A stretch of DNA of 64,000 nucleotides from Apostichopus japonicus (Eukaryota; Echinodermata; Holothuroidea; Aspidochirotida; Stichopodidae), in the NCBI RefSeq assembly GCF_037975245.1, contig NC_092569.1:18085501-18149500 (forward strand), in the 5' to 3' direction. Under the pieces are notes generated by a model, which saw nothing but the letters and a program-made list of their open reading frames with translations, made no database searches and had not been told where the DNA came from. Below, one piece after another: positions 22,098-51,237 of this stretch; within the stretch, counting starts at the first letter, position 1; each line of letters begins with the position of its first letter. Made by a program: the position numbers and the translations under genes.

Positions 22098-22147
22098 AAA
22101 TCCGACCGTTAGGCAACACTTCATGTGAAAAAAATAGCACTTAGGGC
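22098..22147 (+). repeat. Left terminal inverted repeat of the central element
   Basis: Starts directly after (TA)n; matches the reverse complement of 51193-51237 at about 17 of the first 21 positions and again at gcacttagggc. Confidence 0.6.
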
Positions 22148-22155
22148 ACCATTTG

Positions 22156-22188
22156 ACTTAGGGCGACATATATACTGTCGCCCTAAGT
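22156..22188. repeat. 13-bp-arm palindrome (acttagggcgaca ... tgtcgccctaagt)
   Basis: Perfect arms 22156-22168 and 22176-22188 around a 7-base loop. Nearly the same palindrome lies at 51021-51054 near the other end. Confidence 0.85.
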
Positions 22189-22544
22189 TCTGCCTTTTAA
22201 ATTGGAACGATAGAGTTACATTCTGCAAATATTGTTGGAAGCAAGTCAAGGGGGGTTGAAAAATGTTCGTTTCTATTAAGATTTATAAAAATTAATTAAA
22301 AACTAGGTAAATTAGAAAGCATTGAAGATAGGCATTCTGATATTGGCTATATGTGCGTGTGTTAAAAACAGCACTTTCGGCAACATTTTGATTATGGCCT
22401 TTAAAATGAAAATCGATATGTATATCTTTATTATAAAATCACCCTTTTAAACATATTACCCAAAGGAAAAATATATTAGCCTCTTTTAAGCAATGAATAG
22501 CGAAAATGAAGATATATTGCCAATATTGTATTGCACGGTATCTT

Positions 22545-22705
22545 ATTGCACCGATGAGAAGCCGGCCCTCTATAACGTTACGCTCTTCGCGCAGTACGGC
22601 TATACGTACGCGAACCTCGATCGTGCCTAGCTAGCCTATCGAGTATATGCCTAGATACAGTCCATCCAAATGCAGATGTGCGAGTCACACGGCGCGGGAA
22701 GAACG
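22545..22705 (+). promoter_or_regulatory. CpG-rich patch ending in a GTAAGT donor; possible promoter and noncoding first exon
   Basis: Unlike the AT-rich surroundings, this stretch is dense in CpG (cgttacgctcttcgcgcag, cgtacgcgaacctcgatcg, acggcgcggg) and ends aacg|gtaagt. It could be the start of a plus-strand transcript running toward the exon-like sequences at 30-36 kb. No start site or product is visible. Confidence 0.3.
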
Positions 22706-48000: not shown

Positions 48001-51000
48001 AGGGATTACTATCAATAGTACCCATACTGGAGTCCTAACAGTGGTCCAGTGTGATGGAATAACATTAAATTGCCAATGTCGCCCTTAGTGCTGTTTTTAT
48101 TCTATGTCGCCCTAAGTGTTGTGAAAAAAGATAAATTTACATAGGACAACTTGTATATGTGTAATTAATTACTTAGTTAATTAGATGATTTTCTATATTT
48201 ATTTTACAAAGGGGTTACTATCAATAGTACCAATACTGGAGTCCTAACAGTGGTCCAGTGTGATGGAATAACATTAAATTGCCAATGTTGCCCTAAGTGC
48301 TGTTTTTATTCTATGTCGCCCTAAGTGTTGTGAAAAGAGATAAATTTACATAGGACAACTTGTATATGTGTAATTAATTACTTAGTTAATTAGATGATTT
48401 TCTATATTTATTTTACAAAGGGGTTACTATCAATAGTACCCATACTGGAGTCCTAACAGTGGTCCAGTGTGATGGAATAACATTAAATTGCCAATGTTGC
48501 CCTAAGTGCTGTTTTTATTCTATGTCGCCCTAAGTGTTGTGAAAAGAGATAAATTTACATAGGACAACTTGTATATGTGTAATTAAGTACTTAGTTAATG
48601 AGATGATTTTCTATATTTAGTTTACAATGGGGTTGCTATCACTAGTACCCGTATATTTATTTTACAAAGACGTTACTATGAATAGTACCCATACTGGAGT
48701 CCTAACAGTGGTCCAGTGTGATGGAATAACATTAAATTGCCAATGTCGCCCTTAGTGCTGTTTTTATTCTATGTCGCCCTAAGTGTTGTGAAAAAAGATA
48801 AATTTACATAGGACAACTTGTATATGTGTAGTTAATTACTTAGTTAATTAGATGATTTTCTATATTTATTTTACAAAGGGGTTACTATGAATAGTACCCA
48901 TACTGGAGTCCTAACAGTGGTCCAGTGTGATGGAATAACATTAAATTGCCAATGTTGCCCTAAGTGCTGTTTTTATTCTATGTCGCCCTAAGTGTTGTGA
49001 AAAGAGCTAAATTCACATAGGACAACTTGTATATGTGTAATTAATTACTTAGTAAATTACATTATTTTCTATATTTATTTTACAAAGGGATTACTATCAA
49101 TAGTACCCATACTGGAGTCCTAACAGTGGTCCAGTGTGATGGAATAACATTAAATTGCCAATGTTGCCCTAAGTGCTGTTTTTATTCTATGTCGCCCTAA
49201 GTGTTGTGAAAAAAGATAAATTTACATAGGACAACTTGTATATGTGTAATTAATTACTTAGTTAATGAGATGATTTTCTATATTTATTTTACAAAGGGGT
49301 TACTATCAATAGTACCAATACTGGAGTCCTAACAGTGGTCCAGTGTGATGGAATAACATTAAATTGCCAATGTCGCCCTAAGTGCTGTTTTTATTCTATG
49401 TCGCCCTAAGTGTTGTGAAAAAAGATAAATTTACATAGGACAACTTGTATATGTGTAATTAATTACTTAGTTAATGAGATAATTTTCTATATTTATTTTA
49501 CAAAGGGGTTACTATCAATAGTTCCAATACTGGAGTCCTAACAGTGGTCCAGTGTGATGGAATAACATGAAATTGCCAATGTCGCCCTAAGTGCTGTTTT
49601 TATTCTATGTCGCCCTAAGTGTTGTGAAAAGAGATAAATTCACATAGGACAACTTGTATATGTGTAATTAATTACTTAGTTAATTAAATTATTTTCTATA
49701 TTTATTTTACAAAGGGGTTACTATCAATAGTACCAATACTGGAGTCCTAACAGTGGTCCAGTGTGATGGAATAACATTAAATTGCCAATGTCGCCCTAAG
49801 TGCTGTTTTTATTCTATGTCGCCCTAAGTGTTGTGAAAAGAGATAAATTCACATAGGACAACTTGTATATGTGTAATTAATTACTTAGTTAATTAAATTA
49901 TTTTCTATATTTATTTTACAAAGAGGTATCTATGAATAGTACCCATACTGGAGTCCTAACAGTGGTCCAGTGTGATGGAATAACATTAAATTGCCAATGT
50001 TGCCCTAAGTGCTGTTTTTATTCTATGTCGCCCTAAGTGTTGTGAAAAGAGATAAATTTACATAGGACAACTTGTATATGTGTAATTAATTACTTAGTTA
50101 ATTAGATGATTTTCTATATTTATTTTACAATGGGGTTGCTATCAATAGTACCCATACTGGATTCCTAACAGTGGTCCAGTGTGATGGAATAACATTCAAT
50201 TGCCAATGTCGCCCTAAGTGCTGTTTTTATTCTGTGTCGCCCTAAGTGTTGTGAAAAGAGATAAATTCACATAGGACAACTATGTGTAATTAATTACTTA
50301 GTTAATTAGATTATTTTCTATATTAATTTTACAAAGGGGTTACTATCAATAGTACCCATACTGGAGTCCTAACAGTGGTCCAGTGTGATGGAATAACATT
50401 AAATTGCCAATGTCGCCCTTAGTGCTGTTTTTATTCTATGTCGCCCTAAGTGTTGTGAAAAGAGATATATTTACATAGGACAACTTGTATATGTGCAATT
50501 AAATAATTAATTAGTTAAATTATTTGCTATATGTATTGTGCAAAGGGATACATATAAATAATACCCATACTGGAGTCCTAACAGTGGTCCAGTTTGATGA
50601 AATATTCATTAAATTGCCACTGTCGCCCTAAGTGTTGTTTTTATGATATGTTGCCCAAGTGTTGTGAAAAGGGCTAAATTCGCATACGTCAACATGAATA
50701 TGTGTTATTAATTAATTAATTAGTTAAACTACTTGGTTTATTGTCTTGCAAATGGATTTCTATAAATAGTACCCACACTGGAGTCCTATACAGTGGTCCA
50801 GTGTGACAAAATAGTATTGTATTACATGTATATGTGTAATTAATTAATTAATTACTTAGTTAATTCCTTGCTAAATATATATTTCAAAGGGATTACTATA
50901 AATAGTACCCATACTGGACTTCAATGTGATGAAATTACATTAAAATGCCAATGTCGCCCTAAGTGTTATTTGATGCGATGTCGCCCAAAGTGCTGTTTCA

Positions 51001-51020
51001 CAGTTAAATTCACTGAGATG

Positions 51021-51054
51021 CACTTAGGGCGACATCTATATGTCGCCCTAAGTG
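51021..51054. repeat. 15-bp-arm palindrome (cacttagggcgacat ... atgtcgccctaagtg)
   Basis: Perfect arms 51021-51035 and 51040-51054, loop of 4 bases. Counterpart of the palindrome at 22156-22188. Confidence 0.9.
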
Positions 51055-51192
51055 TGTTTGTGTACAATTAATTGATTATTTAATTAAAATCCTTGGTATT
51101 TGTATTTTGCAAAAGGATTATATTTAAAAGCACTCAAACTGGAGTCTTTACAATGGTCCAGTGTGAAACAATAACATTAAATTGCCAATGTT

Positions 51193-51237
51193 GCCCTAAG
51201 TGCTCTTTTTATCCTATGTCGCCCAACGGTCTAATTT
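51193..51237 (-). repeat. Right terminal inverted repeat of the central element
   Basis: Reads gccctaagtgctc, T-rich gap, then gtcgcccaacggtctaattt, the inverse of the left end at 22098-22147. It is also a variant of the satellite unit (gccctaagtgctgttttt, then gtcgccctaag). (TA)n begins 5 bases further on. Confidence 0.6.

Follow-up and report, generated by a model that had tools for sequence, protein, structure and literature searches.

A window of 64,000 nucleotides of the Apostichopus japonicus genome (C9:18085501-18149500 of the 671.6-Mb, 35-contig assembly) contains a tandem cluster of fibrinogen-domain (FReD) genes, within which a 29,145-bp element lies at window positions 22098-51242 (plus strand). 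This element is probably one copy, internally deleted and non-autonomous, of a giant DNA transposon of the tyrosine recombinase (YR) type, representing a new lineage in animals. The family has precise ends and many nearly identical dispersed copies, mostly inserted in (TA)n tracts, and the FReD cluster includes an empty paralogous unit. Furthermore, in some relatives a KMT5A-like SET gene is present, and the gene that follows it has most of the catalytic residues of a YR. Judging by its sequence, this downstream gene very probably encodes a YR, and it would be this enzyme that moves the element, a step of which we are less certain than of the assignment of the protein itself.

Ends, host site and dispersed copies

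The extent of the element follows from its other copies, from the pairing of its ends and from the empty paralogous unit. On the left, the (TA)n tract at 21971-22097 passes into AAATCCGACC at 22098, and on the right TTTAGAGT ends at 51242 and is followed by the tract at 51243-51282, both tracts constituting the target site. A first-pass annotation, made from the window sequence alone, had placed the left edge at the same position and the right edge at 51237, which is corrected here to 51242. It had also described the ends as imperfect inverted copies that adjoin (TA)n, carry the same palindrome nearby and enclose satellites of the segment's own, and each of these features was recovered, the (TA)n junctions also in other copies. 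The left terminal inverted repeat (AAATCCGACCGTTAGGCAACA..., 22098-22153, plus strand) comprises about 56 bp, and its counterpart (...GCCCAACGGTCTAATTTAGAGT, minus strand) occupies 51187-51242. Including the TA stretches, the inverted similarity between 22051-22153 and 51282-51187 amounts to 81.6% (E 4e-18), and under strict scoring the non-TA part of the alignment scores 45. Among 20,000 randomly drawn pairs of window pieces, oriented relative to each other as the two ends are, three reach at least this score (118, 118 and 69) because they extend into the (TA)n tracts, and the next best scores 37. An alignment with weak gap penalties is swamped by AT-rich noise, since its score of 57.5 compares with a shuffle mean of 38.7, a shuffle maximum of 59 and values of up to 68 for unrelated windows.

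The palindromes consist of 12-bp arms around the 7-bp spacer TATATAC at the left end (22157-22187) and around the 6-bp spacer TCTATA at the right end (51023-51052). Allowing one mismatch, the 12-mer CTTAGGGCGACA of the arms occurs 52 times in the window, twice in the left palindrome and 50 times within 45178-51200, compared to a shuffle expectation of 0.07 on average, and diverged copies of the arms are also present in the terminal inverted repeats. At the right, the sites lie nearly all on the minus strand of a subterminal array of 209-bp units (45049-51227, minus strand), which reaches the terminus. A profile built from this array has matches with E <8 outside 45049-51242 at the left end only, namely at 22109-22155 (E 0.002), 22363-22387 (a degenerate unit core on the minus strand, nhmmer E 0.039) and 22174-22197 (0.3). 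Thus, the last array unit forms the right terminus, and the left end bears a few decayed units whose order is inverted. A second satellite, with a 146-bp unit unlike the 209-bp unit, occupies 38098-41447; it is also present in the copy on C17 and, in a shorter form, in that on C8.

Genome-wide, the terminal sequences are not solitary. A 203-bp query from the left end has 39 matches, 23 of them at >=90% identity, and three left ends, including that of the window, match the query identically over its full length and share the highest score. For the right end, at least 29 matches reach >=88% over most of the query, the remaining matches being made up of satellite units. Nineteen of the 23 left ends have, within 75 kb, a right-end partner of correct order and strand, no left and right end lie so near each other in a wrong arrangement, and random placement of the ends yields 0.108 pairs on average and at most three in 2,000 trials. 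The paired copies measure 16.4-69.1 kb, with a median of 29.1 kb. The exact palindrome (12-bp arms, 6-7 bp spacer) is found at 39 places in the 671.6 Mb, compared to none for a reversed control; 14 of these are left ends, with 7-bp spacers, and 24 are right ends, with 6-bp spacers. The remaining one, at C2:28568574, is probably the right end missing from the unpaired left end at C2:28604647 (minus strand), 36 kb away. Together with an interior that is common to the copies (the SET region described below is present at at least 25 loci), the paired ends indicate one large element, as the first-pass annotation had inferred, and not the two related short insertions it had held open; independent short insertions were rejected for the same reason.

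Most copies are inserted in (TA)n. Eighteen TA-flanked left ends start with AAATCCGACC[G/T]TTAGGC, and all 25 right ends that were read finish in a form of TAATTTAGAGT. A strict rule, which requires >=90% TA/AT steps over 20 bp, places 19 of the 25 right ends within TA, and likewise 18 of 26 left ends. The right-end exceptions include three AT-rich but imperfect sites (C16:22853319, C16:33958626 and C2:11534008), a broken TA tract (C21:7048800) and two sites that are not TA (C16:43214924 and C7:824405). The left-end exceptions lie in (TATC)n (C16:13761248), in imperfect TA (C2:11505814 and one on C10) or outside TA (one on C22), and four further left ends, diverged or truncated, do not match the start pattern. 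The outer flanks of the copies are mostly unrelated, and a few share a tRNA-derived short interspersed element (SINE) with a (TA)n tail. Four copies were taken whole and not at random: those on C12, C2 and C8 were chosen for a split match to the SET region, and that on C17 for its likeness to the window copy. They hold 15, 53, 73 and 113 CTTAGGGCGACA sites per copy, nearly all in the right array, and no such site is present in their retrieved flanks. A further copy of 26.5 kb (C9:18200973-18227501), with ends 100% identical, is separated from the window copy by 64 kb, is inverted relative to it and is perhaps the product of a local move.

The host site is a (TA)n tract within the FReD cluster, whose identity is supported by Pfam PF00147 (E 5e-25 and 8e-26). 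In an anchor alignment, collinearity between FReD unit 1 (1-18984) and 18985-64000 extends to both sides of the element, and no unit-1 sequence is found inside 22098-51237 when TA and satellites are masked, the unmasked comparison giving TA matches only. The earlier observation that the cluster resumes beyond a segment free of FReD-unit sequence is therefore upheld. The distance from the last left to the first right anchor is about 1.1 kb in unit 1 and about 30 kb in unit 2, and unit 1 possesses a comparable (TA)n tract at a similar place (3738-3995). As about 280 bp to the left of the unit-2 tract and the sequence to its right up to 51634 do not align between the units, the empty site is a paralogous and not an exact one. 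To the right, a tRNA-derived SINE with a (TA)n tail adjoins the element (51283-51631, tRNA-like part 51447-51521), followed by a truncated FReD exon relic. Since sequence related to this SINE flanks some other insertions as well, SINE tails may supply targets.

The deleted interior and its longer relatives

The window copy retains a remnant of the first exon of a KMT5A-like SET gene (30800-30919, plus strand; KMT5A 7.4e-5, Pfam SET only 0.018), which is cut by an internal deletion with its junction at 30919-30921 and which by eye is shifted in frame relative to the C12 copy. The SET region occurs at at least 25 genome loci and is uninterrupted across window position 30920 in 21 of them. In the copies on C8 and at C2:28.6M, the SET query splits over about 4 kb at this position, which in C8 is due to an insertion with inverted ends of its own. 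This insertion measures 4.1 kb (joined positions 8891-13029), lies near the window's deletion junction, has the ends CAGTACCG.../...CGGTACTG and is TA-flanked.

In the copies at C12:33.2M and C2:11.5M, which hold 22.6 and 7.5 kb more, the sequence carries on past 30920 as SET coding sequence. These two copies share a collinear segment, mostly at 90-95% identity, that comprises the remaining half of the first SET exon, a second such exon, a repeat array and then the YR gene; the array, of about 260-bp repeats, differs in length between them. The second SET exon matches KMT5A at 6e-7 in C12, and the C2 copy matches Pfam SET at 1.2e-8 in two frames. A complete KMT5A-like SET domain is thereby supported in C12, where its first part was recognized by eye and its second exon by the KMT5A match; the SET gene is truncated in the window copy, and its first exon is frame-broken in C2. 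The YR frame is open over 628 amino acids in C12 and broken in C2. Between these two copies, dN/dS of the YR gene, computed without gap codons and one stop codon, is 0.33 overall (71 differences) and 0.18 in the catalytic half (15 differences).

The C17 and C8 copies match the window copy at 94-98% over most of their length. C12 and C2 represent a diverged sublineage with interiors 75-92% identical to the window copy, the two ends of the C12 copy being 98% identical to those of the window. Given the collinear SET and YR segment shared by C12 and C2, the YR segment seems to belong to the element itself and not to a nested insert, and the window copy, like its siblings, seems to have arisen from a longer form by deletion. 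No transposase or integrase domain of the DDE type was recognized by Pfam in 222 window frames of >=38 amino acids (110 of 110 on the plus strand and 112 of 113 on the minus strand), a scan that shorter exons would escape. The first-pass statement that no transposase was recognizable is explained by the absence from the window copy of a stretch that holds the candidate recombinase gene in two longer-gened relatives. Of the options put forward earlier, the window copy corresponds to a non-autonomous giant, and the family may be a new class.

The association of SET and YR extends beyond the window family. A YR query has at least 72 genome matches, which correspond to 63 loci after nine extra pieces of the same genes are dropped, and a query with the second SET exon has 142. 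At 51 of the 63 YR loci, a SET match is found upstream, within 35 kb and on the same strand; none lies downstream, one lies on the opposite strand, and random placement gives 0.41 on average and at most four in 1,000 trials. Two further SET-YR families comprise five and four dispersed copies that are 99.6-100% identical at both YR and SET, as measured on pieces of 474-600 bp. Some YR relatives lie within open frames of 1000-1225 amino acids, and SET-YR fusion proteins may exist, as the SET and YR matches at C9:14168834-14172283 are each assigned a frame of 1167 amino acids. A different, broken SET-YR pair (C17:9146378-9150136) is located about 7 kb beyond the C17 copy.

Other features of the window copy include a duplicated segment (31216-31549 and 33140-33479, both plus strand), of which the first copy contains an in-phase exon at about 31308-31391 and the second an exon at about 33234-33317, both identified by eye. 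A predicted minus-strand exon (MGKSSAERQRNRRERL..., 44313-44486) has a sub-threshold Pfam match only (clamp_Gag1-like, 0.0061). It is surrounded by six copies of the 17-mer CTGTGACTGATGGGACA (up to three mismatches; 42701-44698, all plus strand, compared to 0.1 in shuffles), which may be a regulatory repeat or indicate a nested element.

The recombinase reading and its rivals

The assignment of the downstream gene as a YR is based on an alignment of 17 C-terminal halves from the same genome, including that of the element itself, in which R66, K114, R191, H217 and Y226 are invariant or nearly so and follow the same order as R148, K172, R247, H270 and Y279 of XerD. The relative L063, 56% identical, matches Phage_integrase at E 0.0012 over 147 of 172 model positions (19-165), which is under the Pfam cut-off; one of the 17 members matches NCBIfam XerA (7.6e-4) and one the phrog_1 integrase (1e-4). 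In an hhalign comparison, XerD, XerC, FimB and FimE are matched at E 4e-4, and the K, R, H and Y residues fall in register. The palindromes are also of interest here. In the window family, ends with intact arms have one palindrome each, with 12-bp arms around seven (left) or six (right) TA-rich bases, a layout that matches the description of the usual YR site as two inverted arms of 11-13 bp around 6-8 bp (PMC3212892).

We propose that the recombinase would bind the CTTAGGGCGACA arms at or near both ends, bring the ends together and exchange strands within TA, such that the element could exit from and enter (TA)n tracts, which would act as its partner. Deleted copies would be mobilized in trans by the enzyme of longer relatives, and the right-end array may represent an expanded set of binding sites, whose growth by unequal exchange would most simply account for the 209-bp satellite. 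The SET protein may mark chromatin to the benefit of the element.

Several observations weigh against this interpretation. The palindromes are set back from the ends by about 59 and 190 bp and differ in their spacers, so that they do not locate the crossover point, and a target duplication is unreadable in (TA)n. Terminal inverted repeats are unusual for YR elements, and animal Cryptons are described without any (PMC3212892). Among the window-family copies found, two carry the YR gene, one of them broken, and as both belong to the diverged sublineage, no direct parent of the window copy is seen. Twelve of the 63 YR loci, including the closest relatives (53%), have no upstream SET match, and 91 of the 142 SET matches have no listed YR downstream, compared to 51 that have one; these 91 could represent host genes, decayed copies or elements with a YR that was missed. 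As to the protein, the histidine of the usual HxxR is a threonine, which leaves five of the six catalytic residues, the hhalign probability is 35% with Arg I outside the aligned range, and unrelated Pfam families give matches of similar size (MOM1, 0.002 in two members), so that the E-values are not decisive alone. The element's own YR matches no Pfam model except zf-Di19 (E 2.2) and no PDB chain in a phmmer search, and an hmmsearch of PDB with the 17-member profile returned no recombinase.

The best surviving alternative, which we nevertheless consider unlikely, is a giant cut-and-paste element served by a DDE transposase from elsewhere (e.g., Ginger2-like or Mutator-like), with the YR acting as a resolvase or carried as cargo. 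In that case, the transposase would have the 56-bp terminal inverted repeats as its ends and (TA)n as its target, and inverted termini are indeed present. There are precedents: endogenous nimaviruses of sesarmid crabs with 46-bp terminal inverted repeats and a Ginger2-like integrase insert in (AT/TA)n (PMC10871703), and MuTAnT, a plant Mutator-like family, targets (TA)n, its putative autonomous copy being flanked by 59 and 27 repeats (PMC4486113). Against a DDE enzyme stand the conservation of the YR coding sequence between two copies, the recurrence of the SET-YR linkage across families and the negative domain scans. In addition to the window frames, 147 of 166 frames of >=48 amino acids in the C2 copy contain no transposase or integrase domain, although a spliced or diverged gene could escape, and the C12 copy was scanned in part. 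Nested insertions hold a 933-amino-acid frame, by eye a LINE-type reverse transcriptase, in C8, and in C2 a 507-amino-acid frame, by eye EnSpm-type transposase-like, of which the 453-amino-acid piece tested has no Pfam match.

A rolling-circle element of the Helitron/Helentron type is very improbable. Proto-Helentron-Pi is reported to carry a SET gene, and DINE-1-like/Helentron relatives to have subterminal inverted repeats and palindromes (PMC4067079), but here the target is (TA)n and not T-rich or A-T sites and the terminal inverted repeats are long. This type was rejected because no Rep/helicase domain was found in the scanned window (222) and C2 (147) frames. It is hardly credible that the two ends are related short insertions with ordinary host DNA, a segmental duplication or captured region for instance, between them. 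The apparent introns of the SET gene and the satellites inside would suit such DNA; the same interior at at least 25 loci, the 19 of 23 paired ends and the collinear empty paralogue argue against it, and a host segmental duplication was rejected because the outer flanks of the copies are mostly unrelated. Finally, (TA)n tracts are weak points in assemblies, yet an error joined at both tracts is similarly implausible, as the same paired ends recur at 19 places and the termini match at the junctions read.

Known systems and implications

Returning to the YR transposon favored here, the closest counterparts in function are the Starships of fungi, which are giant (15 to about 700 kb), encode YRs and are sometimes flanked by terminal inverted repeats (PMC12134995). 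The element shares with them its giant size (16.4-69.1 kb), a YR and inverted termini. Unlike in Starships, where the captain leads at the 5' end, the YR of C12 and C2 follows SET and is remote from both ends, and the animal host, the (TA)n target, the SET gene upstream of the YR and the subterminal site arrays are further differences. The Starship domain PF11917 (DUF3435) has no hmmscan match in the element's YR (E <=10) or in the 17 relatives (E <=1). The element thus works most like a Starship, yet fails its defining domain and gene position.

Compared to Cryptons, the element is several to many times larger. The Crypton domain DUF3504 is not matched by its YR or by the 17 relatives in hmmscan. 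Both are YR DNA transposons, and Crypton non-autonomous derivatives are likewise reported to outnumber full copies; unlike the animal Cryptons, which appear in that account without terminal repeats, the present element has terminal inverted repeats (PMC3212892). Judged by termini and domain, it is not a Crypton.

Endogenous nimaviruses of crustaceans are also giant and insert in microsatellites, and their telomere-repeat types carry YRs, typically with a C2H2 zinc-binding domain, whereas the (AT/TA)n types are described with a Ginger2-like DDE integrase and without YRs (PMC10871703). No viral gene domain was found in the 147 C2 frames scanned, and the viral contigs contain neither relatives of the 44313-44486 exon or of the YR nor the palindrome. 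Microsatellite targeting of (TA)n and inverted termini are shared with MuTAnT of Medicago, which differs in its size (about 200 bp to 4.9 kb) and mudrA-like transposase (PMC4486113). Large size and asymmetric subterminal arrays of short motifs are shared with CACTA/En-Spm elements such as soybean Tgmt* (20.5 kb, 4 vs 24 repeats; PMC2613891), but CACTA termini, a three-base duplication and a tnp2 transposase are not seen here. In Drosophila Galileo, a member of the P superfamily, internal tandem repeats of about 140 bp likewise lengthen the terminal repeats (PMC4168063). Galileo differs by its P-type transposase, its far smaller size and the extension of both ends, as opposed to the right end only in the present element.

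In the literature searched by titles and the starts of abstracts, mostly outside subscription journals, no giant non-viral YR DNA transposon of animals was described, and no work was found that joins tyrosine recombinase, KMT5A and a transposable element. We therefore regard the element as a new form of YR DNA transposon, for which superfamily rank is possible. With less confidence than for the window copy itself, we lean towards the view that it exemplifies an undescribed superfamily of giant animal DNA transposons with a KMT5A-like SET gene upstream of a zinc-finger YR, which in the present genome alone would occupy dozens of loci and comprise several families, some with practically identical dispersed copies. 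Such elements would form an animal counterpart of the Starships, with lox/FRT-like 12-6/7-12 sites and exchange within TA as their means of residing in microsatellites, and with a chromatin enzyme of their own.

Giant YR transposons are already well documented in fungi. If the present interpretation is true, animals also hold recently multiplied elements of 16-69 kb, the longer-gened copies of which carry a histone methyltransferase gene. Microsatellite targeting, the transport of host genes, the purpose of the SET enzyme and the growth of a terminal binding-site array into a satellite would then become testable questions.

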